Shown piece by piece: positions 4,404 through 30,432 of a DNA stretch of 38,419 bases. Both the position numbers and the translations under genes were made by a program. Under the pieces are notes generated by a model. The model was not told where the DNA came from and ran no database searches. It worked only from the letters and a program-made list of their open reading frames with translations. Numbering within the stretch: position 1 is the first letter of the stretch; every line of letters starts with the position of its first letter. This DNA comes from a virus, in IMG/VR virus record IMGVR_UViG_3300025684_000031, positions 1 through 38,419 of that record. The stretch is one strand, 5' to 3'.

Positions 4404-4439
4404 TTTTTTTGTCCTATATAATCCTGTGTTTACACGTTG

Positions 4440-4447
4440 TATTTATA
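4440..4447 (-). promoter_or_regulatory. T4-type late promoter (TATAAATA)
   Basis: The minus strand reads TATAAATA, an exact match to the T4 late promoter recognised by gp55-bearing polymerase. It sits in the 44-base gap between fibre genes, touching the upstream stop codon, and is expected to start transcripts near 4433, about 30 bases before the start codon at 4403. No sigma70 -35 element accompanies it. Confidence 0.75.
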
Positions 4448-6277
4448 CTAATTTGCAGTCCATGCCCCATTAGTAATTATGAAGTTTCTTGTCCCTCTTG
4501 TAACGCTTAACGTAAATGTAGGAGTTAAAGAGTTAGGTAAACTTATGCCCTGTATTACACTTACTACGCCGCCTGCAGCTGCATTAACATTCACTTCAGT
4601 GATTGTAGTAGGTGTTGCAATATCAATTGGGTCTGTTGCTTGACCTGCATAAGACGTTGTAGCAATTCTTGCTTCTTTGCCATTAGCAAACGTTGTTGCA
4701 GGGTACAAACTTTGTAATATTGCAATAATTCCATCGTTAACACTAAGCATGCCTGTAATATCTAGTGACATTACTATTGGTTCTACTTGTACAGTTTGAT
4801 CAACATATACTTTATTAGCGCCATCGCCATCTGCTGTTGGGGTTAACAAGTTTGTAATTTTGTTACTGTTTAGATCAACATCGCCGCCTACGTTAATTGA
4901 TAAGCCTGATCCTGCGCCTGGTCTTGTAATTACACCTGCATTAGATATATTTACACTTGCTGTGCCGCCTGTACCTATATTAAGTGTTTCAAGTACACCA
5001 AGATTTCTTAGGCTACTGTTAATTACGCCAGTGCCAATTGTAGTTGCTGATAATACATCAGTACTATTAACTTTAAAACTTTTTCCACTTGCTAGATCTA
5101 AGTGTTCGCTACTTGTCCATGAACTTGTTAAATTTAACCATTGGAATGTTTTATCAGTAGTGCCTTTTAATGTAATGCCACCTTGGTCACATGTTAAGTT
5201 TGTAGGACTATCTACTACAGCTAATTCAATATTTTTATCTGCTATTTGTAGTGTTTCTGCTTCAGTTACAAAACTGTCACCTTCTACTGTTAAATTACCA
5301 GTAATACGTACATCGCCTGTAACATCTAAATTATAAGCGGGGTTTGAATTAAATAATCCTATACGTTTTGTTGTGGGCTTAATTATTAACGCACTTGTTT
5401 GGTCAAGTACATCATTAGCACCACGTACAAGAATATTAAAATCATCACCTGCTCTAGTATTTCTAATAGTAAAGCCGTTATCCATAAACAATCTAGTATC
5501 GTCATTTGGCCCAATTGAAAGACCTGCACTAACTCTAACGTCTAATCTACCTTGTAATACCTGATTGGAATTATTTTTCATTAATTCAGATTCTTTAACT
5601 ATTCCGCCAGTTTCTGAATTAATTAAGTTTTCCGCAAATTCAGCAACACCTCTATATTTAAAATCGACTGTATCTATTAAATTTACACCTTTAAAAATAG
5701 TTCCTGTTGCATTAGTTGCTGTAACTAATCCTGATACTAAATTGTTAGGAATAGGGTTTGGAGTAAATGTTTCGCCTGATATAACAGCATGTAATATTTC
5801 GTTTGTAAATAATTTTAATACTGTTTTTGAATTTAGATCAGTATCAAAAATTGTATCTGTTATAACTCCACTTTTTCCTTGCAATCTGCTAAATGCTGGA
5901 CCAATTAATGTCCATGATGTGCCATCATACAAGTAAAATTGTTTTTCAGCTGTACTAAACCATGTGTCGCCTGGTACTGGTCCTGAAGGAAAAGTTTCAC
6001 TAATAAAACTACCAGCTGCTGATTGGAAGTCTGTGCCGTCAAATACTTTTAATTTGTTTTCGCTTGTGTCATACCAAAGTTGTCCTTTTAATGGTGTAAC
6101 AGGACTATTTGGATTAGCAAAGTTTTCTAACATCTTTATAAAGTTTTCATTTATAAATTCGCCGTATCCAGAATAGTTTCTACCTACTAGACTTATGTCA
6201 GTAGTATTAGTGTCCAGTATCCCATCTACAAGTTCTGTAAGTAGTGTTCCATCTGTTTTGTTTAAATTATAACTCAT
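4448..6277 (-). CDS. Tail fibre-like protein B (609 aa)
   Basis: The N-terminal 130 residues repeat the module shared with proteins A and C: NYSGYGEFINENF, MLENFA, P-V-T-P-L-K-G-Q-L-W-Y-D, LKVFDG, GDTWFSTAEKQFYLYDG and LIGP. Around residue 310 it has NPAYNLDVTGDVRITGNLTV, and further on the ADKNIELAV, GGITLKGTTDKTFQW and SSEHLDLASGKSFKV segments that are widespread in marine phage fibres. Near residue 490, NKITNLLTPTADGDGANKVY is a common fibre repeat. The last 100 residues (from MSLDITGML) are unlike those of A and C and lack a collar or peptidase-like domain. It is probably a homotrimeric fibre or adhesin; the unique C-terminus may be the receptor-facing end. It starts eight bases after the stop of gene C. 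Confidence 0.8.
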   Translation of the reverse strand: MSYNLNKTDGTLLTELVDGILDTNTTDISLVGRNYSGYGEFINENFIKMLENFANPNSPVTPLKGQLWYDTSENKLKVFDGTDFQSAAGSFISETFPSGPVPGDTWFSTAEKQFYLYDGTSWTLIGPAFSRLQGKSGVITDTIFDTDLNSKTVLKLFTNEILHAVISGETFTPNPIPNNLVSGLVTATNATGTIFKGVNLIDTVDFKYRGVAEFAENLINSETGGIVKESELMKNNSNQVLQGRLDVRVSAGLSIGPNDDTRLFMDNGFTIRNTRAGDDFNILVRGANDVLDQTSALIIKPTTKRIGLFNSNPAYNLDVTGDVRITGNLTVEGDSFVTEAETLQIADKNIELAVVDSPTNLTCDQGGITLKGTTDKTFQWLNLTSSWTSSEHLDLASGKSFKVNSTDVLSATTIGTGVINSSLRNLGVLETLNIGTGGTASVNISNAGVITRPGAGSGLSINVGGDVDLNSNKITNLLTPTADGDGANKVYVDQTVQVEPIVMSLDITGMLSVNDGIIAILQSLYPATTFANGKEARIATTSYAGQATDPIDIATPTTITEVNVNAAAGGVVSVIQGISLPNSLTPTFTLSVTRGTRNFIITNGAWTAN

Positions 6278-6285
6278 ATCGTTTC

Positions 6286-8370
6286 CTAAACATTATCGGC
6301 AAATATTATGTAGTTTACTGTAACGAACGGTGGTAAAGCATCTAGTGCTGTACCTAAATTTTCTGCACCTCTAAATGATCCTTGCCCGTCGGTTCCGCCT
6401 TCTTTAATTCCACCACTTGATGGAATACCACTTGTTGTTTGTGCGCCTTGTGAAATATTCAACGGTTGGTTAATACTTCCTTGCTCATCGGGTGCTACAG
6501 TATCATCAATAATTGCATAGTGCTGTGTACCACCTGGCGACTTCATGTCGTGTTCGTGTTCTGGTAAGTTTTCTACCTTAATATCTTTAAATTCAGAACC
6601 AGATGAACCACCTATGTTATCTGCGTTTGTATTAGTTACACTATTTGCAGGTAAGCCGCCCATGTTATCAGCACCTAGTAAAAATCTACCTCTAAAGTCT
6701 GGTAAAGCAAAAAATGATGCCGCAGAGTTTTGAAAATTTGGACTTTGTGGATCTTTAAATTTAAATCCTATTACGCTGAATAACGCTGATGCTTCTGTTT
6801 GTCTAATTTCTTTTCCATCACACAAGTACCAACCAGGGGGCGCAACTTCGCCTGCAAAAGGTACAATCATTCCTACTGGATTTTTTGGAACGCCTTTTAA
6901 CAAGTTTGTTTGAGATATTCTAAATAATCCGCCTTCACCCTGTGTTCTGTTAATTAATAATTCGTCTCCTGTTTGAGGAGTAACAACTACACTCTTATCT
7001 GATATAAATCTATCACTTAATGTCGTTGTAAATGTTTTTGTAAGATCGCCTGCACCGTCAAATGTTATTGGATCTGAACTTACATCACCTGTTAATTCAA
7101 ATACAGTTTTATTGTTAAGTTTTGCTGCACTTGATGCTGTACCATTAATAGTACCTGACACACTTCCGTTAAAGAAACCTTCAAATGTGTCTGCTTTTAC
7201 AGTACCAAACCCTTCCATGTTAGGTTTAGTTAATGCATCTGGATCAGCAATAACATCGCCACCAATATTTGTTTGACCTTTTACAGTAAGTTTTGCACCA
7301 ATTTTAACATTCTTAGCAACACTCGCGCCGCCTGATGTTACAATAGTGCCTTCAGTTAATGTATCATTAAAACTATCATCTGCATCTTCAACACCATTAA
7401 CGTCTAAATTACCTGAAAAACGACCGCTACCTGTTACATCTAACGGAAGTTGTGGATTTTCTTGATTAATACCAACATTAGTATTAGACTTAATTCTAAT
7501 TGCTGTTTGTTCGCCTTGATCATTTTTAACTTTAAAGTCTAAACTAGCACCGTTGAAGTTACTTTTTACAACGCCGCTTTCTCCTGATGCTTCTAATGCT
7601 AATTGCGAATTTGCACCTACTTGCACACCCTGGTTATTCTTAACATAAAGTGTACCATTTGATGTTGTATCTACGTCAGCACGTAAAAAGTTACTAGATG
7701 GAATATTGCTGTTTCCAATTCTAAGTGCTTCTGCTGATTCTGCTGTGCCGTTATACTTGGCATTAGTACTTGACAGTGTTAAACTAGTTAAATTAAATCC
7801 TGGTTTAAGAACTGAAAAGCCTCTAATATTTACTTTAGGTGTAAATTGTGCATTTGTTATAATTGCTATAGGTTGAGCACCTACTTCAACTTTTAATACT
7901 GTGTAACTTTTATCATCTGTACCTTGGATTAGTTCTGCTTTTGTACCTGATGATAAACCTTCACTAAATTCTGGTCCTACAAGTATCCAACTTGAACCGT
8001 TGTTCAAATATAATTGCTGATTACTAGTATCTACCCAAAGGTCGCCAATTACACTGTTTCCAACTTCAGGTTGTGCAGCGCCTTTTTTGATGCCTCCTGA
8101 TTCAATCCAATTTGTTCCGTCATACACTTTAAGTGCATCAACACCAACAGTTGTATCATACCATGTTTGTCCTTCAACAGGATTAGCGGGCGGATTGTTA
8201 TTTGCAAAGTTTTCTAAAATATGCAAGAAGTTACCTGCAATCGCTTCACCGTATGCTGTGCTGTTTCTGCCAGGTAGAGATAAACTAGTATCAGTATTGT
8301 TTATTTCTCTATCTTCTACAACAATAGATCCTTTATTTGTAAAATCTGTAAATTGGATTTGATATGCCAT
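6286..8370 (-). CDS. Short tail fibre/tail collar protein C (694 aa)
   Basis: The N-terminal 135 residues are the module shared with A and B (NSTAYGEAIAGNF, ILENFA, NPVEGQTWYD, GDLWVDTSNQQLYLNNG, LVGPEF). The middle has fibre repeats, including LPLDVTGSGRFSGNLDVNGV. Residues about 488-573 form a phage tail collar domain: PVGMIVPFAGEVAPPGWYLC, then DGKEI, then LPDFRGRFLLGAD. This is the fold of the T4 short tail fibre gp12 head region. An HEH triad in LPEHEHDM (about residue 604) recalls the metal-binding HxH of T4 gp12. The C-terminus ends PPFVTVNYIIFADNV, as in collar proteins. It is probably an irreversible receptor-binding fibre. Its start overlaps the 206-aa gene stop by one base (TAATG). 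Confidence 0.87.
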   Translation of the reverse strand: MAYQIQFTDFTNKGSIVVEDREINNTDTSLSLPGRNSTAYGEAIAGNFLHILENFANNNPPANPVEGQTWYDTTVGVDALKVYDGTNWIESGGIKKGAAQPEVGNSVIGDLWVDTSNQQLYLNNGSSWILVGPEFSEGLSSGTKAELIQGTDDKSYTVLKVEVGAQPIAIITNAQFTPKVNIRGFSVLKPGFNLTSLTLSSTNAKYNGTAESAEALRIGNSNIPSSNFLRADVDTTSNGTLYVKNNQGVQVGANSQLALEASGESGVVKSNFNGASLDFKVKNDQGEQTAIRIKSNTNVGINQENPQLPLDVTGSGRFSGNLDVNGVEDADDSFNDTLTEGTIVTSGGASVAKNVKIGAKLTVKGQTNIGGDVIADPDALTKPNMEGFGTVKADTFEGFFNGSVSGTINGTASSAAKLNNKTVFELTGDVSSDPITFDGAGDLTKTFTTTLSDRFISDKSVVVTPQTGDELLINRTQGEGGLFRISQTNLLKGVPKNPVGMIVPFAGEVAPPGWYLCDGKEIRQTEASALFSVIGFKFKDPQSPNFQNSAASFFALPDFRGRFLLGADNMGGLPANSVTNTNADNIGGSSGSEFKDIKVENLPEHEHDMKSPGGTQHYAIIDDTVAPDEQGSINQPLNISQGAQTTSGIPSSGGIKEGGTDGQGSFRGAENLGTALDALPPFVTVNYIIFADNV

Positions 8371-8990
8371 TAGCTGTTACCTCCGCTAAGGCTTTGTACT
8401 CGAACTGTATAATCTACTTGGATCAATCTGTTTAGTGATTTTTGTACAGGATGGAAAATAACATGAGTAAGCAATCTACCATTACCTAAAATACCATCTG
8501 GACTTACACTACGCAAACCTAATTCGTCAAATACGAAACTGTTATCTGCATCAGATGCTGTATCAAATGCATCTTGGCCGTTTGGTTCACCGTAGTCTAG
8601 TAAACATGTAATAACAATATCAGTATAATTTGTACCATTTACGTGTCTAGTTTCGATCTTATTTCTAGTAGGGTCCAAATTATCTGTATTTCTATCGTCA
8701 ACTATCTTTGTAAACGTTTGATTGTACAAACCTGCGTTTGTTCCTGTTGAGTTTGGAGTAAGATATGTTATTACCCCTGTTGTATCTATATTTGTACCGC
8801 CGTTGCCGAAGCTCATTACAGCAATAGGCCCCTGTCCTGCATTACCTAAAGATTCTGCAAGAGCAATACTCATATTTTCATAGTGTATGGCGTTCTTTTT
8901 GTTAACAAAGACTTCGCCGCTGCTAGGGTCACTTATTTTAATATGTCCCTGTACAAATACACCGTTTTGTTCATTAATTGTGTTTGTCAT
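8370..8990 (-). CDS. Conserved virion structural protein between the giant and collar genes (206 aa)
   Basis: The protein begins MTNTINEQNGVFVQGHIKIS and has a Gly/Asn-rich middle (VMSFGNGGTNIDTTG, then TYLTPN), a strand of TDIVITCLLDYGEPNG, and a C-terminal HVIFHPVQKSLNRLIQVDYT. No enzyme motif, signal peptide or membrane segment is visible. Proteins of this pattern occur next to fibre genes in T4-like cyanophages and are listed there only as structural. By position it falls where T4 has gp8-gp11, but no homology to those is evident. The start ATG follows AGGAATAG, is preceded by an AATAAATA late promoter, and its stop overlaps the start of collar gene C by one base, so the two are coupled. 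It may be an adaptor between baseplate and fibres; that is inference. Confidence 0.75.
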   Translation of the reverse strand: MTNTINEQNGVFVQGHIKISDPSSGEVFVNKKNAIHYENMSIALAESLGNAGQGPIAVMSFGNGGTNIDTTGVITYLTPNSTGTNAGLYNQTFTKIVDDRNTDNLDPTRNKIETRHVNGTNYTDIVITCLLDYGEPNGQDAFDTASDADNSFVFDELGLRSVSPDGILGNGRLLTHVIFHPVQKSLNRLIQVDYTVRVQSLSGGNS

Positions 8991-9008: not shown

Positions 9009-9016
9009 TATTTATT
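9009..9016 (-). promoter_or_regulatory. T4-type late promoter (AATAAATA)
   Basis: The minus strand reads AATAAATA, matching the NATAAATA late-promoter form reported for T4-like cyanophages. It overlaps the stop codon of the giant gene and lies 19 bases before the start of the 206-aa gene, leaving a leader of about a dozen bases with an AGGAA ribosome site. The same sequence at nearly the same spacing precedes gp6. Confidence 0.65.
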
Positions 9017-12000
9017 CGGGTAATTCACTTCTTGCTCCACGTAAGAAACTACCAATGTCGTTTTGAGCATCTTTTAATGGAGTGCCCGGGTCTGTCCACA
9101 ATTTACCTACTTTTCTAATAACAACTAACTTTTGATCCGCTTTCATTGGACTTGTTAGTGTTAATGTATCGCCATTTACAGTGAACTCTGCTGGTGTATT
9201 TACATCACCTTCGGGTGAATCAATTGCAAGTACGGGATCAAATGTAGCTATAGCAGCCTTATTTAACCTCTTTCCTGCAGCAAACACTTCAAACTCATTT
9301 ACACTGTTTGGTGTAAAATCAAGTGTGAATTCAGTCTGTCCTTCGGTTACAGCAGCAACTGGTGACCAAACTATGTTTTGATCAGCATATGGAATAGTTT
9401 TCTCTACTCCTGCGCCGTAAACTCTAGTTTCTGCCTTGTGTACTGATGCAATACCTGTTCCTAATGTGCCTCTGCGTAACTGTCTTAAATCGTTGCCTGT
9501 TTTTGCAAAGTACTCAATACGTTCGCCGTTAATCCAAATAATGCCTGGTTTATTAGAACTCTTATCTGGTCTTGGTAATTTATCTGCTCCTTCAACAACA
9601 ACAATTCTAAGATCATTAAATGCTAAATCTTGTGCTAGTTTTACACCATCGTTATTATCAACACGTTTATAATGTGTTCTATTAAGAATATCTTTAAACT
9701 GTTGCCATGCAATAGTTGGTGTGCTAATTGGTGCTGTAAAGTGTATAATATCTATTGTATCATTTTCACTAGGTTCATTAACAAGCTCAATTATTCTCAT
9801 GTTGCTCTGTAACTTGTAATCTACACTTGGTGACAACATAGAACCGTTTTTAAATATCCAAACATATTCAACACCGCTGGCTGGCTGATTTAACAATACT
9901 CTACCGCCTGTTAATTGATGGTATGCTGAATAATTAGCTGACCCAGGAGTTAGTGAGCTTCTGTTAATTACGTCATAACTTATGCGGTTAATATCTAATA
10001 TATCATGATTACTAAATGTGTACGCATTTATAACATCATCTTCTGCTAATAAATCTGTAAATGTAATTTGGTTGCCAACAATACGATAATCACCATTTCT
10101 AAAGTAAACTGTTAATATATCGCCTTGTGACAAAATATTACTTCCTATTGTAACACTACTTTGTCCAATATTAACAGTATAACTATCTTGCTGGTTTAAC
10201 AATTTACCATTAAGATATACTTCAGTATCAGAAGCATTTAGAGTTGACTCTTGTACTTGGAATGTTTCTAACATATATTCTCTTTTTGTTGCATCCGTAA
10301 TATAGAATACTTTTGAGTAACCTGGCTTTTTAATGTTTCCGTTTACTTCTACAATGCTAAAGAACTCTGCAGGTGTTTCGTATATTGCATTAGTTGACAA
10401 GTTGTATGTAATACTCGATCCGTCAGCAATAATATTGTCTTTTTGTATTTTACTGTAATTAATTTGTGTATTGTTAGAATAAATTTCATAATCTAATCTT
10501 GTACCTACAGGAGGTGCTACTGGACTAAACACAAATTCAATAAATCCTTTGTCACTTTTCTTAGCAATTAATTCAGGTCCGTCTGGTTCTTGTCCATTTT
10601 TCTTAAGGTATATTGAATAATTGTCATTCCATAAAGTATTTGTTATGTATGAACTTTGGCCTTCTGTTGTAAACAGTACTCCAAGGTCAATTATATTTTG
10701 ACCATTTATACCAACTGTAAGTATTGTTAATACTTGATCTGTTGCAGGCGCATTTTTAAATGTTACTGTAAGAGCTGTGTAATCTAATGTGTACTGTGCT
10801 TTATCAACTATTGTATTGCCTAGTTTAACAATTACAGCATCGTTACTGTGTGGTGCTAAACCTAGTGGATAAGTTGTAGTTGTGCCATCAGTCAAATAAT
10901 TTTGATTATATATTTGTCCTTGACCTTCGCCGTTTCTTTCATAAACTGTTATATTAACAGAGTCCATAACTTGACCATTAACTAGTTCTTCTGGTCCTCC
11001 TGTTGTTAAAGGAGTAACAAATAAATCTCCGTCTAATATAATGTCGTCTGCATTAATACCTCCAGCATTACCATAAGCCAGGGCGCCACCTTCAAGTATA
11101 GTATCGTAACTATCGCCATCTGGTTTGAAACTTCCATCTGATGTTGTTTTTCTAATAGTAACAATATCACCGTCATTAACTTGAATATCATTTTCGGCTA
11201 AATTAATTGTTTGTGTTACACCGTCACCTGTTAGTGTTTGCATCATTGCTAAAGGATTAGTTGGTATAGTATCGTAATTAGGATCGTCTATTCTAATTGC
11301 GTTTGTTTGTCCAAAACGTTTCAAATAAACATTATATTCAATACCATTTTCTAAAGGTTTAGCAAGCTCAATAGCAACAGTAGTTCCATCTGCAAAGAAA
11401 ATTTCATCTTCAAATGTGTTATCGTAACTGTCCCAAGTGTCTGTTCCATATTCGTCGGTCATCCATCCTGACGTGCCTTCAAAGCCAAAGCTCTTAACTT
11501 CTACACCACCGTAATCAACTCCAACCATTAGTTGTGATAAATCTTTACCAAGCATTCCTGTTGTAGGATTATACAAGTGATTAATTCTATCTTGTGCATT
11601 TAATATTGCAGGATCTTTTTCGTATTCAACTACAATAATACTTCCTAATGCAGGAGTTTTACTAAATTGTACTTGACCTTTTTGTCTATCATATGTATAT
11701 GTTTTATCATCTACGTTAGTAAATGTATATTCACTACGTAATAATAATGTGCCATTAATTGTAACTTTTATTTTGTTACGTTTTAAATTAATAGGCCATT
11801 TTAAATTAAACTTATCATTTATTGCTGTACCTGTAAATGTTTCTGTTTCAGGCAATAGTGTAATATAGTATTGTCCAGAAACTCTATCAAACTTAATACC
11901 AACTTGTAGACTTCTAACAACACTGTCGCCAATTTGCGCTGATGCTATTGCTGTTGTAGAACCGTCTGCTTGTGATCCGCTAATAGTTACTGTTGGCGCA

Positions 12001-15000
12001 CTAGTATAGCCGCTTCCTGCATTAGTAACCTCAATGTTAACTACTTTGCCTGCGCCAATATATGCTTTTGCTGTAGCGCCTGTACCGCCACCGCCTGCAA
12101 TAGTTACTGTCGGCGGATATGTATATTTGCTTCCGCCATTGTAAATATTAATTGCTGTAACTTTATATCCGTAATTTTCTTTCCATGATTGATATGGATA
12201 TTCATCAAAGAACGCATCTGCTCCAAGCAACTCGTTATCTTTAATTTTTACAGATTTAGTTTTTATTCCGTTTTCTGTATAGTCATAAAACGGAGGAACA
12301 TCAAAGTCACTTGTTTGTGTATTAGTATTATCTATATTTTCATAAGAACTTAGATATTCACGTATGTTTGTCTTATAAGGTTTAACTTCGTTAATGTAAT
12401 CATTGTAACTACTTAAATTATCATTTTGATAATTTATCTTTTGCTCTAGTCCACCTACATTATGTTTTGCTTTTACAAAACTTGTTTTATATACCCAGTC
12501 AACATTTTGCTGTTCTGATAATACATATCTAATACTTGCAAGAAATAATTCTTGCCATTTAATTGCTAAGTTGTCTACAAATATATCGTTCTTTAATGCT
12601 GTTAATATTTGTCTACCTTCAGTTACTGGTTCAGTATCAAAGAATCTGTTGTCGAAGCCTAGTAAATCATAACCAACTGTATTTTCTATTACATTGTAAA
12701 TCTTGCTACTAATTTCTATTGTACCGTTTTCTCTACCAATAGTTTCATAATCAATTGTATAATCTAAAGAATTAGTATCTGCAACACGTTTTAGCAATAA
12801 CCAACCGCCATTACCTATGTTATCAATCTTAACAATTTGGCCAATCTTAGCATTTGCTGATGCTAACTGGTAGCTTTCATCTACTCTATGATCAATTCTT
12901 GTAAATTGTGTATAACCCGTTGCATACCAGTCTACATAATCCCAATATTCTTTTGTATCGTAACTTTGTGACTTTACTCTATCCCAAAGACTTGATGATT
13001 TATTCCATTCGTAAATAGCCCATTTGTTATTAACTGTGCTATCGTTTTCAACTATTACTGTAAGTGGTCTTACTTCAATTATTAAATTTTCATCATATCC
13101 AGTACCACCGTTAATAATGTTTACTTTACTAATTTGTCCTAGGTTATTAATTTCTAAGTTGAAGTCTAATCCGCTACCGTTACCAAACAATTCAAAACTT
13201 GGTCCGTGTCTTACAACACTTGTAGTACTGTCATATGTAGGATCGTTGTATCCTCTACCAGTATCAGTAATTCTAATATCAGTTACTACGCCACCATGTA
13301 CTGATGCTTGTAATGTTGCTGTTTTAATTTTGTTAATACCAATAAAATTTAATTCATCTAATGTATCAATTTTATAATCATATGTTCTGTCAGTTACAAA
13401 CGGTTGAACATCGGCATTGTTAAGTGTTTTAAAACTAAAGTCGTCTACAATAATAGTTTCTCGAAGTGCTAAGTTTGCTCTTTCAATAACTTGCTTAAAT
13501 GCTTCATGTCTATTAACAAACCAACTTTGTCTTGGACTATTTAATGTACCGTATTTGTCTTTTGTACTTAATTCAGGATCTGGAACAATACGTCCTCTTG
13601 AATCATATCCAAGTAAACTGTCAATCCATTTTCTTTCTATGTCTGCTTTAGGTACACTTGTTTCTAGTCCTTCTGTTAGCAGACTATATTCTAAATGTCT
13701 ATTTTGTTCTTGTGTATCCTGTGTATAGTAACTTACATGTAAAGCAATGTCTTTGTCTTTAATTAAATTTTCACAGTTATAAAGAACAAATCTATCATTA
13801 CTTAATAATGCTACAAAACTATAACCTTGTCCTCTTGGATTAGCAATTAATTTTGCAACTTCAGATGCACTAATTTTTCTTGCTTCTTGAATAGGAACAG
13901 TTACTTTGTTTTTAACCCAAAAGTAATACTTGTCACTAAATGTTTGTGATACAGGATCATAAATTAATTTTTGACTATACGCATCATTGCCGTATTTAGA
14001 TAGTCCACTTATGCCTTTTGCAAAACCTGCAGCTGTATCTGCTCGGTTATCCCAGTCTGCAGGAACAATATCACTTTCTACCCATTCATAAATATCAACT
14101 GAGTAATTAGGTATTAATTTGCTCCAGTTATTAGCCTGGTTAGTAATATCTTCTTGATACACATTAAAGAATTTTGCTGTAGATAAATCCCACCATAGTT
14201 TGCCAACATGTTGTTCTTCCCAATTAGAAGTTTCACTAAAATAGTCAGGTAATGTTGTAACATTATAACGTGCAAAATCTATGTTTGATTTAAATGTTAA
14301 TTCTTGCTCTGCTGGTCCTGCAATTTTACCTTGTACAGGATCAATATAATCTAAGTATGTAGTTAGTTGATTTGTTTTTACGTTGTATAAGAATGCCGAT
14401 TTAATTTTTTGTGTGTCAACAACTTCATTTGGTGTTCTTAATAATGTCCACGGTTTTTTATCTTGTGTAACTTGATAGTCAACAAAACTTCCAGGATTTA
14501 TATCTTCATCATAATATGTGTTTGTATCTGCTGGAACTCCTACATAAATGTGATTGTCGTTAATTAAAACTTGTTCGCCAAATCTACTTGCAAATAGCAC
14601 ATTGTCATCGCCATCATAGTCTAATTCTTCTGCAAGTATGTATGCATCTTTAACTTTTTGGTATAGTCTAACACTACCACTGTCTACTCTTTTGTCAGGG
14701 TATGTTGTAAATGTATCATCAAATGACGTAGTACCGTTATCAAATACTGTTTCAGTAATACTGTCGCCATTGCCGCTTGTTACAGCAATAATATCTTTTG
14801 AAATACTAACCTTAGTGCCAAACTTTTCACTAAGTGTTCCTGTACCTGATAGCGTTTGGTGTAATTCAAACGCTCCATTTACTTTTGCATAGACATATGC
14901 TTTACCTGTGTTATAACCTTGTACATCACTTTCAGGATCAGCAATTACTAAAGTGTCACCGTCTTCGCTAAGGCTTATACTACTTCCCCAACCAGTGTTT

Positions 15001-18000
15001 GATATAGGTGCAACAATAGTCTGATCAAAAACATACCTATCATCTAAAATTCTATAAACAAGTACTTTGTTATCAGGGTCAACACTTGTATCAGTAATTA
15101 CACTTATTGCAAGTACTTGACCGTTTTCGCTTACACTTATTTCTTTTGTAAAGTCTAATACACCTTCACCTAAATCATTAAACACTGGGTCATTGTAAAT
15201 GTTTACAGCGTTTGGCAATGATGGAAGATAATTTACTGTACTGTTTAATGTTATCCATTTAAGTGTATCAGTAGGTAAAACACCTTTAACAAATGTAAGT
15301 GCTGAATATAATTGATTGTTGTATAAAACTATTTCATCTGTTCTATACGCTGCATCAGCCGAGTAAGGTCCTCTATAATGAGGATTAATATCTAAGGCAT
15401 AATTGTATTTTTTACCGTATTTGTCAGTACCATGTTTTAAAACTGTTAGGTTCTCTTTTGAACCTATGTAAAATCTGTATAGTTCGCCATCTTGTGTTAC
15501 AGCAACTTGTTTACCAACATTACTGTTTGTAGTACTTTCTGGAATTGTCCATGTCCCTCTGTTGGTCCATGTGCTTCCTACTCTATTAAAGATACTATAT
15601 ACACCTTGATTTACAGGCTGACTGGCTTGCGAACCGCTAGTGTCTACTGGTAAGTTGTAAACAAGGCGCCAGTCACTGTTTGATGTGCTAGGTATACTTG
15701 CTTCTGCGTCTGCGCCTGCTTCTGTTAGGTTTTCTTTGTATACCCAAAATTCTTTATTAATGTGTGCAAACGTATTCAAATCTTTAAACTGATCTAAGCC
15801 ACCATATGATTCTGGGTGAGCAGGGAAGGTCGATCCTTTTTGCATTACAGCAATTTTACCTGTATTGTTTCCTGTAACAGATATTTTGTTAATTGGACCC
15901 ATAATACGTTGGTTTGGTAATTGCGAAGGTCCTTCTAATGTTTCTAATAATAATCTGTTACCTTGAGTAAATGTTCCTGTAACATCTTTAAGATATACTC
16001 TACCTTGGTCAGTAGCACGTCTTATATAATATGCAACACGGCCTCTTGCACCAGTTATTTCATCTCTAATAAAGTCGCCAGTTGCTCCACCAATATTAAC
16101 AATGTTCCCTAATAGGTCTGTAAATACTTTTCCTTCATAAGCAGGCTCAAAGAAATCACCGGTATCAGCGTCTTGGTCTGATAGCATGTCAACATCGGCG
16201 CCCTGTGTTTTAGTAAATGTAAAGTCAATATAGCCTTCCCACATATCTATAACAGTGTGTAAGTTATCGTTAATGTAACTAGGGTCAATACCTAATAAAG
16301 TAAAATCTGGTTCATCTGCCTGATCATTAATATATGCTCTAAACTGATCGCCTGGAGTTGTAATTTCTCCAGCTAGAGCTGACGGAACTCTCATTAACCA
16401 TCTGTTGTCTAAAATGTTTTGTACACCATCGTTATCAACATTTATGTATGCGGCGCCTCTGTGCGAAAGAATACTAACAAATACTGGTTCGTCCCTAGTT
16501 GGGAATATTGTACTTGCAACATCATCTAAACCGTTCGCATAAAAGTTTGGTATAGACCTTGCATATGTTTGAGTATCTTCATTGTAAACTAATACATCTT
16601 GGTATACTAGACCGTAAGCCGGTACACCAAAGTCTTTTGCTTGTGTAAATTCATCTGATGTTAAGTAGTTTGTGCCTGTGTTAATATACCACCAGCCGCC
16701 TATAGCACCAGTTGTGCCATTATAGTTTGGCTGTGTATAATCGCCAATTGGTGTTCCGTTACTATTTGTAATAGTTCCTGTTGGGCCAAAAACTCCATTT
16801 GTATCTTTTATATAAAGTACAAGTTTAAAATCTCTTCGGAATGCTTTATAAACTGTTGCTGAGCCGCCTACTGCATTTATTATGTCGCCATCTGTTGGAG
16901 GATCAGTAAACGGTTCTACTAGTAATACAGCATCAACCTTTTCTACAATAACATGTTCGCCATTTATAAATGTTGATGTTGGCTCTGTATACGATGCCGC
17001 TAAATTCTGTGCGTTGATGCCTTCTGGGAACACTTCTACAGGACTTGCATTACCTATATTTCTATTAAAGTTTGTATAATTATTCCACTTAAGAACTAGT
17101 TTGTCTTGTGGCTTAGAACCTCTGTATTGATCAAAAGGTGCAGCAATTAACAAGTGATCTGTTTGTAAGTTTGGTAAGTACGGACTACCTTGTAAAATTA
17201 GTGTTAGTAAAGAACTATCGCTTGATCGTTCAAAGTTTGCATAACTGTCAAAAGTACTAAATGTAATACTGTCACTTTCAGCAGTAATTGCTCTTACTGC
17301 CTTCCAGTAGTTTTCGTTATACTTAACAATGTCGTTTTCAGCATAATCTAAAGTTTTACTATAATTGCTTTGATAATTAGAAGCAACTTCACTTGCTGTG
17401 CTTGAACCAACAATTAGATATTTGCCGTCTGCACTTATATCAATATCTGCACCAAAGCGATGACCGTCTGCCACTGGATATGTGTCAGTGTCTAAAGTTA
17501 ATGTTTCTTCAAATAATAAATCTCTTAAATTTGAACCTCTTTGATAAGTGTAAACATTACCATTTAAACTGTTTGCACTATGGTCACCAAGTGCTAATCT
17601 AGTGTTTGCTTTATTTGCCGATATAGCAGATCCAAACTCGTATGCAGATGTAATGTCATAATCGCTAGGATTATTATAATGTGATTTATCAGTGTATACA
17701 TTATTTTGTATAGCAACAACCCAATCATTCTTAGTTGAACCATTAATCCAAACTTTCTGATCTTTAATTATTTTGTCTTCTAATACAATGTTTGCGTCTT
17801 TTATTGTATCAAAATTTACTGATCGTAAAATACTTACGTAGCCATTAATATCACTTAGATCTTCAATACTATTGTTTGCGCCAGCAAGAACATTTACACT
17901 AGTAGGCTTTACAACTTCTACAGTGTAAAACCCATCATTCTGTGTTGATGTATTCTGCAAGCCAATTATGTCACCTCTTTTGAAAGAGTGCGATCTGTCA

Positions 18001-21000
18001 AATTCGATTGTGCCACCTGGATTATCTACACCAACAAATGCATCAGCACCTTCGTCAAAGCCTGTTATATTAGTTACTCTAATATCAGTAGTTACATGTT
18101 GTAAAACGTCCCATGGTTCTCTATCACCTGTTACCCAAATATAATCTTTGGCACCAATTACATCAATATTAGCTGTAAGTATATCTGTCTTATCGTTAAT
18201 TCTATATGCAGCGTCTGCATCAAACACAAATCCGGCGTCTTTAGTAAATTGTGTGTAATCTACAACCGTCGGAAACGGTTTATGATCGTAGTTTTGAGGT
18301 CTTTTATATACGTCTGCTGGGGTTAGTTTATAAATAGTGTCGGTATCGTTAGCCGGTAAGTTAGTTACAAGCTCAACAGGCTGAGGATTAGTTTTAATTT
18401 GTTTTTCATCAATTAAAAATTCAACATCGTCAAAGTTATCAGTAGCGCCATACTGGCCAACTCTAATTGCCCATTCTTCATAAAATTCTAAACTTTCTTT
18501 ATCAGCACTTGCAAGAGCATCAAACAGTTTTACTAAACTATTTTTTGTACCCTTATCTTGTAACATTCCCTGGTAAAACTTATATTGACTTACATCGTCA
18601 TTTATAATGTTTTCTAAATACTTGCGTTTTTGATATCCAATTAAATGCTGTGCATGTTTTTGTTGTTCAAGATCAAAGTTGTCTGTATCTAAATCATAAA
18701 AATCTGCAAACTGATTAATTTTGTATTCAAAGTTTGGAACTAACTGTGCTTGCGGGCGGCTTTCTAAACGCTCCCATTGTGAATCAATAAACACTTCTGT
18801 ACCAGTTACATTAGACAATGCAACATAGTAAAATTCTTTATGCTTAACTAATTTGCCAATGCCATAATCTTTGTATGGTTGCCAGTCTCTTACTTCTGCT
18901 TCGTCATATATAAAGCCTGGTATGTTTAGGCCGCCGGACCAGTTATCACTTCTATAACCAGTAACTTTAATTCTTTCTTGTCTATAACCTGCTTCTTGGT
19001 CATATATTACATCACCAAATACAGTTTTGTTATCTAATAAAATAACATGTTCTCTTTGAACTAACGGAAGTTTAACACTGTAAATACCATCTGCGGTATT
19101 TCTAACACTTAGACCAAAATCATTTTCTGTATCTCTAGCAATGCTACTAAACGATCTTTCTAATTTTTGTCCATCTGCTTTTAATAAACTATAATCATAA
19201 AAATTATCAAAGATATTATCTACGACCATATATTGTCTGTTGAATGTAAACTGTTGTGCGCCTGGGCTAATAGTTAATACACTTCCTGCAGCCCAATTTT
19301 GTGTAGTCCAGAACATAAATTCTTTTACACTGAATGTCCAATCTTCTACAACACTTATGTCTTTATTGTAATATTCAAACGTAAAGCCTTGTGTCTTTAA
19401 GTATGCTTCGTAGCCTAATAAGAAGTCAACAACTTCTTGTGTAGTTTGAAGCAATGTTCCATAAGGTATAGTGTTAATACGTTTTGTAAACTTTCTTCTA
19501 AGTACATTTGATCTACCGCCAACAAGCGGAAGTTCTGCTAACTTAGACATTTTAGTATCATCAAAACTTGTACCACTAACATGGCTTGTGTTTACTCTAT
19601 AATAGAAATTATTATATCGAACATTTTGTCCTTTAACATATTGTTTTCCGCTATCCCAATTTACAAATGACTCTGAAATGCCGCCTATGTTTATTACAGG
19701 ATCTGATGATGCTTGTATAGGTTCATAATAGTTAAATGCAGCTGCAGCCTGATCATATCCTTTTATAACATAACCATTTGTATTTTTTTGAATTACAACA
19801 CCGCTGTAACTTGCAATTTCTATAGGTACAGATGTGTTTAAAAATAATTTGTAATTTTCTTCTGGTACAAATACATTGCCTTCATTTAAAGGTGTTCTAC
19901 TATCTAATATTAATTTAAATTTACTCTTGTCAGTAAACCCGCCAACTTTAAGTGCTAATTGATTTTTTAAAGTTTTTAATTCTGTTTGGTACTCATTATA
20001 GCTAGTGTTTATATCGCTAACTATGTAGTTGTATACAAAGTTAACAAGACCACTTGTAATAACACGTTGGTTGTCTGTATATGTATTTGGAAATACTAAA
20101 TCTTTTAATCTAATAATTGTATTAGACGGAGTATAAACAAGATTGCCTGTTTTGTTTCTTAACATTCTTGATAAGTCAAAACCAGTACCCATTACTTTTG
20201 CTGGTTGATTTAATAACCAACTTGTAATTAATGCAAATGGATATTCACTGCTTTTTCTCCATGCACTTTCAGTAGGAGTATGATCTCCAAATGTATATGA
20301 ATCTCTTGTTCTTACAGCAACAAAGTTTTGTGCATAGTTACTGTCTAACGGACTTAATAAATTTCCATTGTCGTCTACAGGAATATGATTTGTTAATCCT
20401 GGACGTTTGTATCTATTATCAACTGTTGCAGGTTTACCTGGAACTTTTATTAAACCTTTTTCAAGGTCTTCCCAAAGTACAAAATTATTTCTAGTATACG
20501 GTGCAGGCCCATATTCTGATTCCCACCATGAAGGTTTAATAGTAAAGCCTAGCATTTCCCAAGGATGAGTATGAGGACGATCAGTATCGTATGCATCTTT
20601 GTACACGCCTCTCCAAAAACCTGGTAACTGTTTACCTGTTGGAGATGACATATTTTTATAGTTGTATCTAAACGTATCTGTGTCTTTCCAAAAAGTATTT
20701 GCTGTATAATTTGGATCGCCTGCAATTATTGACCATTGTACAAAATCACTTACCATTGCACTGTCAACGTCTTGCCTACTAAAGCCTGTATCTCTAAAGT
20801 TACCGCTAGTAAATTCATGTATATCAAAAACGTCTGTGTTATATGCTTGTTTTAGATTATTATAAATTCTTCTTTCAAAATCTAATATTAGATTATCACG
20901 ATAATCGTTATAAGCAAAAGTAATACTTCCGTCATGCCCTTGGATTACGTTGCGCGGTGTTTCTTGTGTTGTGTCTAAATACAGTTCAGGCTTATAAGCA

Positions 21001-24000
21001 GGATACAGTCCTAGCTTAGTTGGCGTAGTAGGTACAAAACAACCGTCGGTTGTGTCATACTCGTATATTTCTAGTTCGTCATTAACCGCAAGTGTTGCTG
21101 ATACCTTTACAAATCCTTCTTCTGTAAATGTGTAATCTGTACCGTGACATAGAGCTACATCATTAAGATATACTAATACTCCTCTTTCAGTTAGATTTGA
21201 TAAACTAAACGTTTTAGTAAGCGGATAAAACACACCGTCACTTGCTCTTACAATATGTAATGTACGCTTAGATGCACCATGTGGTATCATGTCTGAGAAA
21301 TAAAACGGCATTCGGTCAGTTTTCTGACTGTTTATTTCTTCAATAATTTTATCTACATGATCTTTAATTGGACCATCATATCCTAAGTTGTCTGCTACTT
21401 GCAAAAATAATCTTTTGTATTTTGCATATTCTAATCTAGCATACTTTAACGCTTTTACAACATTTGCATTTTTATCTGTAAGATGATAACTTGCAAGTGC
21501 AATAGGTCCTGTGTGTTTTACAAAACGTGTACCAAATTGACTTAGGTTGCCAATATCTCTTAAATTACTAACACCTGGAAATATATTACCGTCATAATCA
21601 AAAGTGTTTTCGATTATTGTGCTTACATGATCTGTAACTTCACCAATAGTAAACTCGCCTATGTTTTCATTCATAGGATTACGTTCTAAGTTGTATGCTA
21701 ATTCGTAGTAACCGTTGTCTGTTTTTTCTGCTTTACTAAAGCATCGTAATAGAACAATATCGTCTTTTTCTAGATTAGTTTTGAATGTTATATAAGCAAC
21801 ACCATTTATTCTATTAATATCGTAATGTGTTGATTCTTTCTTAAAACTATTGTTTACATAAACTTTAACAACTAAATCATTTATGTCACCGCTACGGTCA
21901 AATACATCTACAGCAAAATCATTTACTGTAGTATCTACTACGTACTGTCTTAGTATTGCTTGTGAGCTTGGCTTATTTGCTTTTATCCAACCATTTTCAC
22001 TTACATATGATGTTAGGTCAGTATACTTTCTTACATAACCGGTTTCAACTTTTACAGTTATGTTGGAATTATTTTCTTCATAAACAAACAAATCACTTAC
22101 TAATGGAAAGTTAAATTGTATATCACCAAAGTTTTCAATAGCTCTATACGATAATGGAAATCCCAATTCAGCATCATTTGTACCTGTGCCTTTTGCATAT
22201 GCAAATAATTCTGTACCATTAAATGTACTTGCATTGTAAGTACCAAAACTGTCATCACTTTCGTCAAAAACATCAAACAATGGTTGCTGATTTACTTGAA
22301 TCTTTCTTTGTGACTCTTTCCAATTAGTACCGTCGAAGTAAAACAGTCTGCCTTTGTATGTATCGCCACCTTTAATTAATACTGTTTCATTTACTTGTGC
22401 TGTAGCATCAGTGTCTTCTACTAAACTAATTTGTCTAATATTGTCAATTAGAATAAAGTTAACTTTGTAAATTTTGCCTCTTACATTTCTATCAGTATCA
22501 GCATTAAAGATAACACGCATGCCATCTGCAAGATTTGTGTTGTCTACACTATATCCAGTGCCGCCTTCTACTGTGCTAAATGCATCGGTAGTTTTGTAAT
22601 CAATTAAGTCTACATCGTCTTTTGCTTTGGTACCAAAATTAAATAGTTTTAGTCCTGCATTAAATTCAATAATTGGTCTTGATGCTCTGACGGTTTGATC
22701 AATGCTTGCTATTCCGTTGTTATATTCTGCTGACTTTTCAATTACATCTTTATGGAACCATTTATTGTAACGTGTCCAAGCATTCCTGTCAACACTTGAT
22801 CTATTAATAACAACATAATCTTTTGTTCCTGCAAACGCACTGGCGTTACCAAACGGCAATCTGTCGAAGCCTTCGCTATCAAATGGAACTAATTTATCAC
22901 CTACATAACTTGCAGGTATAACTAAATCTTGTTCTCTAACTAATTTAATGTTGGTGCCAACACCTTCAACATACCACTCATCGTTAGCATATATTTCTGG
23001 AGTTACTTTACCAGCAAATTTTACTTTAAGTCCATTAGTAAATTGTACTTTGTTTGAACTTGTGTAGGTTTTCTTACCTATAATTTCGCTTACATCAATC
23101 TGTGTGTTTTCAATAATATCAAAAACTTTAATGTAGCCACTTGTGTTAATATCACTTCTACTTGTATAATATAATTGTTCTGGTGCTTCAAATGGTACAG
23201 TAAAAGTAATTCTACCTTTTTCAACATTTACAGGATTAATTTCATTGCCTTCTAAATCTGTTGCTGTAAGTCCTTGTACATATAGGCTCGATGCATTATC
23301 TGCACTTCCTGATACAACTTTATAACTGCCGTCATCTTGTTTTTCAAGTGTAAACGGTGCATCTGCAAAACGTCTATCAGTTGAGAACGAAAACGGATGT
23401 CCTGGTGTGTCTATTTCAAATGTATATGTTTGTCCTCTATATAAAGTAAGCGCAGGATTTGGTTCAAACCCTGGAGGAGAAAATTTGTATACTACGTTGT
23501 CACCCTGATCTTCTGTAGTAACTGTATATGTGCTTACTTCTTCTAAACTTTTTCCAAACACCGAAACAGTTTGTGGACCATTCGGTAACCAATAGTATTC
23601 ACGGAAATTTGTAAACTTGTCCCAGTCTATATTTGGGTTCCATGCATAATATTCTTGACTGTTTAATTTGCTTTGGTCTTTGTTATTGCCTGAAAAGTTG
23701 TTAACTTGATTAACATAGTCAGCGTAATCTGCAAAAAAGTTTACATTTCCTAAATCGTCAACAGATACAGTAGCAGGTTCTAATTGTCTATCTTGTCTTT
23801 GTTGTGTAACGTCAGCAATATACGTGTCACCTGCCTTAAATGCTTTTGCATTTTTGCGGCCCATGTAACCGTTTACTTTTTCTGCTGTGCCAGGTTGTAC
23901 AAGTTGATCTATTGTACTTGACAGTATTTTCTTATTTGCTTGTGTTCTAAAATACTTAGGAAGTAAATCTACACTTTTTCTATTACTGTCTCCGCCTGCT

Positions 24001-24038
24001 GGCAAAGGTGAGTCTGTCTGATCGTTATCGTAAGACAT
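9012..24038 (-). CDS. Giant composite baseplate/tail structural protein (5008 aa)
   Basis: A single uninterrupted frame of 5008 codons directly after gp6 (one-base TAATG overlap), the place occupied in T4 by gp7 (about 1030 aa). N-terminal residues 1-190 hold conserved marine-phage segments ([29 protein letters not shown]). Residues ~190-305 look cupredoxin-like ([20 protein letters not shown]). Four short aromatic modules resembling carbohydrate-binding ChtBD3 lie near 1457, 1716, 2220 and 2889. FG-GAP-like blades lie near 2133-2200 and 2960-3160. Gly-Tyr repeats ([14 protein letters not shown]) lie near 3590-4020. Fibre-like 'gn-l--g--Yt' strands lie near 720, 950, 4090, 4400, 4604 and 4724. 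[14 protein letters not shown] to [10 protein letters not shown] segment is near 4830-4860. It is beta-rich, without the long coiled coil of a tape measure. Placement in the wedge is from synteny; homology to gp7 was not seen. Confidence 0.8.
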
Positions 24039-27000
24039 TAGTAGTAACTTCCTCCACTATTTGATCCGCTGTTGTTTGAGCTATTTGAACTAGTAAACGA
24101 AGAAGAACTTGTTATACCAGTATTTGCTGTTTCGCTTGAAGTAACAACGTTACCTGATGCGTTTAATCTAGTTGCTGTAATTTGATCTATTATTTCAATA
24201 TTTGCAACAGTTGCACTATTAATAAAAATCTCATCAACTTCGCTTCTTATTTCAAACAAACTTCCAAACCCTTGTGTAATTTGGTTTGGCACAATTACTA
24301 CACTGACTAAGTCAGGAGCAAGTCTATTCATAATATAAGTTGCTAATTCTTGGAAGTAAAAAGTATCTCCAAAGTCCCAATTTTCTAAAGCAAAATATTG
24401 GTTAATTGATTCAATAGATCTTGTTTTAATATCGCTATCGTTTAAAACAACACCTGGATTTTTTACTAATTTAAATGTTGCTTGTAGGTCTGACTTTGCA
24501 GCACTACCAAATAATTCTTTATACTTTACAGGATGGTAAACAACTTCATCACTAATAGATTTAATCTTGTTTAACTCTGCACCATAAGATCTAAATAATT
24601 CATCTGAACTTGGTGGTAGCGGTTTTTGTGAAAGTTGCCCATCTAAGTAAAGTCTGTAATTTCTGTCATAAGTTTTTGTAAGCATATATGTGTCAATCAT
24701 ATTGCTTGCACTTGGATCTATTCTGTTGTTAGTATCTGCAACATGCACATAATGAAATTTCAACTTGTCTCTGCCAACAAACGCTTTATAATTACTGTCA
24801 GTTTCTAATTCAAGTGATGTTGCATTTAACTTTTTAAATACGTCTGCATCTCTAAAGTAAAATAATTGTCCATCTGTATATGTGCTTAACGGTTGAATTG
24901 CTGTTTGCGATTCTAAAATTTGTATATTAGAAGCATTAATATATCTAAAGTCTTCAACACCTGCTTCTGTAAAATATTTTTCGTGTATAATAAATTTTGT
25001 TAATGGTGCTGTATCTTCGTCAACAATATGTAAAAATAATTCAGGATCATCAATAATACCATCTGCATCTTTGTCAGCAAAAGTTATTTCTATTTTTTTA
25101 GTATCTACATATCCTTCTTTATCTCTATAAGACTCTAAAATGTCAAAATCAAAATTATCTGTAAATGGCGATGTGCTATCAGGCTGTGTATTAATGCTTA
25201 AAATACTTAATTTGTCTTTAATTGTTTTACCTGTTTGTGAATCATAAATTTTGTCACCACTGTCGTAATAGAATTTAATTTCTCTATCACTTTCAAATAC
25301 ATATCTTAAACCTCTGTAGGTTACTTTATATGTCTCGCCGTTAGTTTCAAACAATAGCAACCAACTTGCGTCAAGATTTCCATTACTTACGTTGCCTGCA
25401 AAACCTGTGCTAAAGTTACTTTTCTTATCAAGGTCACTTGCTTTAATTAATCTCCAAACTCTGTTAACATCATCATAACGTAAACCAAAGTCATTGTATG
25501 CAAAAGTTTGATCGATAATTTCTACTTTTACATCATCTATAAGACTACTTGCTAGTTTAGGGCGAATTTGTATAAGTCTGCAAGTGCTTGGTATTTTGTC
25601 TGCTAATGCAATAGCACCTTGTGTGTCTGACAAACCTACAGTTAGGCCATTGCCTGCAACTGCTACAACTTTCGTCCACTTGTATATTGAACTTCCTGGA
25701 TGATCTGCTGCGCCGGCCATAAGTGTACCGTCTTGCATAAAATGGAAGCCGTTAGCCGCTTGGAATTTAACTGCTGTACCTGCTTCAATATATTTTAAAC
25801 TGTTTGTTGTAAATGTACCAACATTGTATCCAGTTCCGTCTGTTGATTGAAAATTACCTGTAAATGTATTTGTATCTTCGCTTACAACATTCCAAAATAC
25901 ATTTAAATCAAATGTATTGATTTTTGGAAACTTATCTAGATAATAATGTTTAACTTTTTGGTCTGCTAGTATAGGCTCAATATTGTTTATAATGATGCCT
26001 TCAATATCTGTTTGTGTAGTAAAATTAAAACTAGATTTATTTGTTATATACTCTTTATATAGAACACCATCGTTACCATATAAATTTGTATTACTATATT
26101 TTCCAGTTGAGTCAATTAGATCAAAATATCTTGAAATACCACTTGACGTTCTGTTTACACTTTTTACTTTTACAATTTCTTGGCTAATGCCTAAAGGTGC
26201 AACATTATAATCTTCGCCTGTAACCATTCTGTTTTGAGTATAATATGTTGCTGGAGCATTCTGTTTAATACTTTGATTGCTTTCGCTTCTTGAACTATTT
26301 GCTACAGTTGTTTGTAAGCCCATTGTAATAGTAAGCGTTTGTACTCTACCTTTTTTACTTAGGTAACGTAAATTAATAGCAACGTTGTTTATAGCACTTG
26401 GTGTAATAACCATGTTTCTATTTTCGCTTGTTCTATAATATGCTTTGAAGTTGCCTTTTGGTAAATTACCAAATACACCATCAGAGAAAACTAAATTAAT
26501 TCTGTCGTCAACTCTTGTTAAAACACTATAAATGTTTCTTATCTTTTTATTAATGCTGTTGTAAATTACATTGTTGCCTTCTACAGCATCAAGTTTTGTC
26601 CATATATCAGATTCATTGTTATTACCATCTAGTCCAAACAACCATACGTCTGAATCATTTATGTTTGGTGTGTCTATTGACACAGTTGAATTCGGTGTTG
26701 GTTGTGCTACATTAAATTGTCCGCTTTCTAATCTACCTTGGCGAAAATGTGCAAAAAATCCTGTGTTACTGCTACCAGGTCCTTGTGTGTCATTTCTATA
26801 CATAAACGCAAAGTTGTTTCCTGGAATTGGAGCTTCTTCAACTAAACTTCCATCTTGGATATCAGTAGATACAATTTCAAAAGAAGTAGTTTTTCCTTCG
26901 ACAGGTTTATCAAATGCATATACAGGCACATCTGTGTTTACACCGTTAAGTCTGTATTGGTCTGTAGATATACCTGCTACTGTTTCACTTTTGTTTGGCT

Positions 27001-27514
27001 TACCAAACACGCCATTTACAGGTAGTGCTGTATTAAGTACTTTAATAAACTGTTCATACCAGTTAGCATTTGTACTATCATTCCATTGGATTGTTTGTCC
27101 TGATAAATTTGTACCGTTTGAATCTAATAAATCTTCTGTTGTACTAACCGCTGTAAATTTTAACAAGCCATTTGCGGCTTGGTTTCTGCGAGGATTGTAA
27201 TTTAGTAGTCTTGCTAGTCTTAGTACAGATTCACGTCTTTCAGCAAGTTCGAGGAAATTTTCTCTTGCGTTAAGGTCAATCCTAAAGGATAAATTTTGTC
27301 CAAGAAATGCAACTAAATCAATTAGTGCAAGGTATTCACTTGATTCAATATAATCGTTGAAATCCTCAGGATAATTAGTCCTAAGGTATTCTATCATTGT
27401 TCGTCTTAAATTGTCAAAGTCGTAACTTTGAAAATCTGCGTTGCGGAAAGATTGGTATACTTTTTTCCAATCCTCTGCAACTAATAATCTATTTTGTCTA
27501 TCCGTAGCTGACAT
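24038..27514 (-). CDS. gp6: Baseplate wedge protein gp6 (1158 aa)
   Basis: T4 gp6 joins neighbouring wedges into the inner baseplate ring. The N-terminus has the family signature: [20 protein letters not shown] near residue 35, then [20 protein letters not shown] and [20 protein letters not shown] (about 82-101), followed by LLNYNPRR. A mid-protein [12 protein letters not shown] (about residue 428) matches the baseplate J-like core. At 1158 residues it is almost twice T4 gp6 (660); the added length is in the C-terminal half. The last 30 or so residues are a disordered Ser/Asn/Gly tail ending SNSGGSYY. The start ATG follows GAGGAAATTAG, with an AATAAATA late promoter 20 bases upstream. It lies between gp25 and the giant gene, as in T4 order 25-6-7. 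Confidence 0.93.
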
Positions 27515-30425: not shown

Positions 30426-30432
30426 AGGTTTC

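Follow-up and report, generated by a model that had tools for sequence, protein, structure and literature searches.

A family of giant baseplate proteins encoded directly after gene 6 of jumbo phages, and its possible kinship with the T4 wedge protein gp7

Results

Gene order at the baseplate locus

The DNA analysed (hereafter the window) comprises 38,419 nucleotides, positions 1 to 38,419 of the IMG/VR virus record IMGVR_UViG_3300025684_000031, itself a 38-kb fragment. The genes considered here lie on the minus strand in the order 297-aa virion protein, gp53, a 1208-aa M15 protein, gp5, gp25, gp6, the giant gene, a 206-aa protein and three fibre genes. The gp53 wedge subunit (34060..34362) was recognized by PF11246 and phrog_7145, the gp25 wedge subunit (27569..28015) by PF04965 and phrog_261 and the gp5-type hub plus tail lysozyme (28032..30479) by Pfam and PHROG matches. 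The gp5 ORF as listed has a TTG start located 47 bases within the preceding gene, and the real start is probably farther downstream. Between gp53 and gp5 lies a 1208-aa virion-type protein (30433-34059) with a Peptidase_M15_4 (D-Ala-D-Ala carboxypeptidase) domain at residues 953-1023. The C-terminal part of gp5 is endolysin-like and, together with the M15 protein, would give one baseplate module two murein-cutting domains. The gene immediately upstream of the giant gene encodes the baseplate wedge protein gp6 (24038..27514; 1158 aa), which matches phrog_10646 and phrog_219 and is 35% identical to PA5oct gp6. Since T4 gp6 itself belongs to phrog_219, this gene is a genuine gp6.

The giant gene (9012..24038) is followed by the gene of a 206-aa protein (8370..8990), which has the same place in relatives and is a homologue of PA5oct gp357 (40% identity), a protein whose record is tagged ESI-MS/MS. 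Next come three fibre genes (2904..8370; 694, 609 and 499 aa), detected by PHROG matches and mutual comparison. Their first 230-350 residues are common to the three proteins at 32-34% identity, and from its sequence this shared N-terminal domain is likely to be an attachment anchor. The small structural gene and the fibre genes that the preliminary description had placed downstream of the giant are these four genes. At 675-2893 lie tandem paralogues of 337 and 392 aa (41% identity), neither of which has a match in Pfam or PHROG. The T4 late promoter TATAAATA was not enriched. PA5oct has the same gene order, there beside a divergent late sigma factor and the 46/47 genes, and by this shared order the window stems from a phage related to the PA5oct/RaK2 group, which consists of jumbo phages of the T4 superfamily.

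The giant reading frame is intact and under purifying selection

The giant frame runs uninterrupted for 5008 codons (table 11) from an ATG at 24038 down to 9012. Its start reads ...ACTACTAATG TCT..., with one base common to the gp6 TAA and the giant ATG, and a GGAGG lies upstream of the ATG. The computed product has a mass of 562 kDa and a pI of 4.7. Intact versions of 5008, 5011 and 5005 codons, having 94, 80 and 75% amino acid identity, were found in contigs of other metagenomes and, overall, independent contigs carry intact versions of 5005-5011 codons at 75-95% identity to the window giant. Relative to four relatives the overall dN/dS of the gene is 0.08-0.13, and dN is far below dS in all ten 500-codon segments, indicating purifying selection throughout. 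In two relatives the frame differs, possibly owing to sequencing errors: that of L341 (3721-17365) is broken into 3123 and 1255 aa and that of L181 (998-14536) stops early at 4513 aa. A chance ORF, or a fusion of several genes created by assembly or sequencing errors, is favored solely by the extreme length of the frame and can be dismissed, as the same unbroken frame is found in many independent contigs and selection acts along its whole length. The preliminary description of a single unbroken frame overlapping gp6 by one base agrees with these data, as does its estimate of roughly 0.5 MDa per copy (computed, ~0.56 MDa).

The giant belongs to a large recorded family

By sequence, the window giant falls into a family of giant baseplate proteins encoded after gene 6 that is large and has been recorded before. 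Three separate pieces of the protein match phrog_10938, annotated "virion structural protein", with E values of 9e-97, 5e-146 and 7e-82. When the first 2000 residues were used in tblastn, 60 phage records matched, and 57 did so across 45% or more; the first 1000 residues matched more than 580 places in IMG/VR. Complete homologues range from ~2500 to 5343 aa. Among ~80 complete ORFs, a set that includes same or near-identical contigs and two ORFs from one split frame, the median is 4576 aa, the maximum 5343 aa and 15 are longer than the window giant.

The position of the gene is equally constant. In all 62 contigs that contain gp6 and at least 900 nt beyond it, a homologue (the query being the N-terminus of the giant) begins within 600 nt after gp6, and this bears out the earlier assignment of a single giant structural gene to the gp7 position. 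In isolates, giants are found directly after gp6 in PA5oct (3857 aa), Atu_ph07 (4449), SCTP-2 (3807), RaK2 (3326) and Vibrio phage 2.275.O (3771), and in Sinorhizobium phage AP-J-162 the wedge protein is followed by a listed structural protein of 4455 aa (PMC11242549). In SCTP-2 the gene at the gp6 position ahead of the giant (L004:8630-17920), a putative gp6, is itself 3096 aa. The phrog_10938 members PA5oct gp355, Atu_ph07 gp180, RaK2 ORF070w and SCTP-2 gp140 occupy the same slot, match the window giant in several blocks along the chain and share its conserved blocks (1-200, 300-700, 1000-1930, 3190-3535 and 3680-3960), but are only 3326-4449 aa. The window giant differs from them by its extended C-terminal part and by inserts at residues ~1713-1760 and ~2300-2800.

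The exceptional standing that the preliminary description implied for this gene does not hold, since phrog_10938 has hundreds of members and still larger gp7-position proteins are annotated in cyanophages (P-SSM4, 7312 aa). That description had also set against its proposal any strong full-length match to a described family of known role; the family matches do exist, the role of the family being a predicted one.

Homologues are virion components

Virion presence is known for relatives of the window giant. An ESI-MS/MS tag marks the record of PA5oct gp355. CBB_236, which adjoins the gp6 protein CBB_237, was detected in CBB by 21 unique peptides (7.7% coverage; PMC5259590), and phAPEC6 gp245, of predicted mass 381.9 kDa and adjoining the wedge protein gp244, by 17 peptides (7.6% coverage; PMC7247149). 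Note that CBB_236 and gp245 are tied to the family by adjacency to the wedge gene plus tblastn matches to CBB and 121Q rather than by aligning the named products. These mass spectrometry results on PA5oct, CBB and phAPEC6 agree with the initial classification of the giant as a structural protein.

Domain architecture of the giant

Five blocks of the protein are conserved in all family members: residues 1-200, 300-700, 1000-1930, 3190-3535 and 3680-3960. The first contains a family-conserved LLP helix motif (residues 23-49; 23892..23972) identified by motif conservation and by the gp7 N-terminal profile. Within the third block are two small beta domains resembling CBM5/12 (chitin-binding type 3) modules, both found by Pfam PF02839 and VIA-align. 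The first (residues ~1456-1502; 19533..19673) aligns over 42-46 residues with Z scores of 6-7 to chitin-binding domains and to chain P1 of the Milano baseplate. The second (residues ~1713-1760; 18759..18902) aligns to a tail fibre of phage 7-7-1 (Z 6.9, rmsd 1.4, 46 residues) and in the sequence alignment is an insert missing from five jumbo-phage homologues. It is followed by a KGT helix element (residues 1822-1862; 18453..18575), which profile comparison picks out as a candidate gp7/gpI wedge core.

In the occupancy table, roughly half the nearer relatives and almost none of the distant ones possess an insert at residues ~2300-2800 (15639..17141). An FG-GAP (beta-propeller type) repeat (PF14312) lies at residues 3017-3050 (14889..14990), and a motif scan gave a similar motif at residue 2195. 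Alignment and occupancy define a second block conserved in jumbo-phage homologues at residues ~3190-3535 (13434..14471). A glycine-rich repeat module, GxGYxxxPTVxI, at residues ~3961-4040 (11919..12158; profile and motif scan) is common to many marine phage structural proteins. The C-terminal region (residues ~4060-5008; 9015..11861) has low conservation by occupancy.

AlphaFold models of residues 1000-1975 (mean pLDDT 81.5, pTM 0.64) and 3185-4062 (mean pLDDT 81.2, pTM 0.49) were both beta-rich which, with the CBM5/12-like, FG-GAP and GYxxPT modules, fits the earlier picture of a beta-rich composite protein. In PDB fold searches with these two models, the CBM5/12-like modules were the only whole-domain matches listed and neither list included T4 gp7 or a gp7-like protein; the KGT stretch was modelled at low confidence. 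A BFVD fold search returned the giant's own family. Chitin-binding domains alone reached significance in phmmer and hmmsearch comparisons with the PDB.

A short element resembles the gp7 family

T4 gp7 (1032 aa) has no detectable pairwise similarity to the window giant by BLAST or HMMER. HHalign of seven giant segments against T4 gp7 gave best P values of 0.05-0.8 depending on the segment and no whole-domain similarity, and no Pfam gp7 domain was found in the KGT region of 70 family members. A scan with P2 gpI returned near-identical sequences only. What T4 gp7 and the giant have in common is the gp6/gp7 gene order, the one-gene slot after gp6 and, possibly, a KGT/KGI helix.

Deep profiles were then compared, one built from 117 nonredundant giants and the other from 80 gp7-family KGT segments. 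Of 80 sliding windows scored against the gp7-family KGT profile, the four that contain residues 1822-1862 scored 28-29, whereas the next, an unrelated window, scored 19.3 and the mean was 14.0 (sd 4.3). Reversed or column-shuffled gp7 KGT profiles gave maxima of 15.4-17.3, although only four such controls were run. The aligned motifs are FYQGxIxxKGTxxSxxKLF and FYxAKGTxxSxxFxFxxL. The best per-sequence HMM match fell at the KGT column in 97 of 105 giants, including 32 of the 34 most distant, even though each chain spans thousands of residues; the giants are, however, mutually related. Single-sequence KGT scores were at most 6 bits, and the shared element is ~40 residues centred on the KGT triplet, which drives part of the score. 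HHalign assigned the element a probability of 8-20%. In the reciprocal KGT search T4 gp7 gave no match, and the control protein T4 gp10 aligned at its own KG motif.

The gp7 N-terminal profile found its best match among 98 windows at the LLP helix region (residues 1-120), with a score of 18.4 versus control maxima of 12.4-16.8, a match that we regard as suggestive only. The third gp7 element, HPAG, scored 17.5 against control maxima of up to 17.7 and hence is at the control level. A KPYxT helix (residue 3886), considered as the third element, found no support; the gp7 C-terminal element scored no higher than shuffled controls. Matches of some family members to phrog_2885 were also discounted because they co-occur with repeat-driven families.

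The preliminary statement that the giant lacks gp7 homology thus stands for BLAST, HMMER and whole-profile HH comparisons, but the deeper gp7-family profile matches one short core element above controls. Judged from these profiles, common descent of the giant with gp7 seems more probable than its absence.

Giants of the gp7 family in cyanophages and pelagiphages

Giant single ORFs also lie directly after gp6 in the cyanophages Syn1 (3274 aa), P-HM2 (4454), P-HM1 (4446), P-SSM4 (7312), S-MbCM7 (3533) and S-CAM1 (3032), and some cyanophage giants are annotated as gp7 or wedge proteins. Two that exceed the window giant in length are P-SSM4 gp7 (L427:8003-20243 and beyond) and a 6619-aa S-SZBM1 protein annotated baseplate wedge initiator (L511). 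The Syn1 giant and gp055 of the pelagiphage HTVC008M match phrog_2885, phrog_17744 and phrog_26741, the same families that T4 gp7 matches at its KGI helix (E values of 2e-5 to 4e-4). HTVC008M gp055 (1016 aa; L184:33435-36485), annotated "head closure Hc2", also matches PF23786 Baseplate_wedge (E 8e-13) and is, by sequence, a gp7-family wedge protein. It has been published that gp7 is absent in marine T4-like phages (pelagimyophages) and apparently substituted by VrlC (PMC7029224). Contrary to that report, the PHROG and PF23786 matches indicate that pelagiphages and cyanophages do encode gp7-family proteins, and that such proteins can be giants.

The giants of P-SSM4, S-SZBM1, P-HM2 and Syn1 resemble the window giant in being giant single ORFs, placed directly after gp6 in those genomes whose neighbourhood was read, and in having an LP helix near the N-terminus and a KGT element; GYxxPT-type repeats are seen in Syn1. 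Beyond short elements and repeats, they gave no pairwise similarity to the window giant. In Syn1 and P-HM2 the KGT element is found around residue 200, but in the window giant at 1828, and the HPAG element is seen in Syn1 whereas in the window giant it is at control level. The sole HHalign match of giant segments to HTVC008M gp055 was to the GYxxPT repeats, which is uninformative on the core.

VrlC of pelagiphages and cyanophages, the proposed gp7 replacement (PMC7029224), likewise belongs to this module and is a large structural protein. Its gene follows gp8 in HTVC008M and in phiN3 lies two genes after gp6, behind the wedge subunit that follows gp7, unlike the window giant, which directly follows gp6. 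HHalign of giant segments with the one VrlC sequence used gave no profile similarity.

Discussion

We consider it probable that the giant is a baseplate wedge component in the gp7 role, in which a small core has been enlarged by beta-rich inserts. This reading is based on the adjacency of a homologue to gp6 in 62/62 contigs and in PA5oct, Atu_ph07, SCTP-2, RaK2 and the Vibrio phage, on the occurrence of homologues in virions, on the gp7-family membership of cyanophage giants at the same place and on the KGT profile, which tops the 80 windows at residues 1822-1862 with 97/105 homologues in agreement. By analogy with T4 the giant would be made right after gp6 and, in each of the six wedges, join the gp6 dimer. 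The small conserved core, composed of the N-terminal LP helix and the KGT helix, would make the wedge contacts. The remaining ~4500 residues would be beta-rich inserts and extensions, namely the two chitin-binding-like modules, the FG-GAP propeller, the GYxxPT repeats and the C-terminal domains. These modules may spread outward to build the periphery or rim of the baseplate. There the inserts could dock the fibres encoded alongside, all of which have the same N-terminal domain, and perhaps contact surface glycans. The present data show the reading frame, its conservation, its location and the domain matches. The six copies, the gp6 contact and the glycan binding are taken from T4 and from domain names, and we infer both the assignment of the core and the role of the inserts.

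The giant could instead be a functional stand-in, an unrelated protein that took over the gp7 slot and contacts gp6 in its own way, the KGT likeness being due to chance. The failure of BLAST, HMMER and whole-profile comparison to relate the giant to T4 gp7, a sole signal of ~40 residues and PDB fold searches that list no gp7-like match would all fit such a replacement. We think it unlikely, as the KGT element outscores every other window and greatly exceeds the controls, a second, weaker element is found at the expected N-terminal place and giants with gp7-family profile matches fill the same slot in cyanophages.

A less likely possibility, which is compatible with the wedge role, is that the giant is a polyprotein cut into separate structural proteins during or after assembly. 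Its length, the sharp differences in conservation along the chain and the frame of the L341 relative, which is in two parts (3123 and 1255 aa) although this may be a sequencing error, are in keeping with processing. On the other side, T4 gp7 itself is not known to be processed; the published peptide coverage of 7-8% is too low to decide.

It is more improbable still that the giant is an outer-baseplate or whisker protein from which fibres, hairs or an outer shell are made, with gp7 function being dispensable or performed by the expanded gp6 (1158 aa). Carbohydrate-binding-like and propeller modules, the expansion of gp6 itself and the hairy tails of CBB and phAPEC6, phages from groups in which the family occurs (PMC5259590, PMC7247149), are suggestive of such a function. 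However, the CBB authors expect the hair genes to be among those missing in GAP32 (PMC5259590), whereas the giant gene is present in GAP32, and strict adjacency to gp6 suits a wedge partner.

The gp7-role wedge reading can be extended to a bolder proposal, which we hold only tentatively and think rather doubtful: that the giant is a true gp7/gpI descendant with its core elements split by >1500 residues of inserts, a single polypeptide that would build the outer baseplate as well as the wedge core, replacing the work of several T4 proteins (gp8, gp10 and gp11) throughout one lineage of large phages and doing so separately from the cyanophage giants.

What is new here is mainly the faint link to T4 gp7 and the picture of a small core swollen by inserts. 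As far as our searches show, these giants are a major part of the baseplate for which there is neither a structure nor a tested role. The published statement that VrlC replaces a missing gp7 in marine T4-like phages (PMC7029224) is brought into question. In large contractile-tailed phages a protein of 2500-7300 residues commonly occupies the gp7 slot and, if there are six copies, the window giant would account for ~3 MDa per virion.
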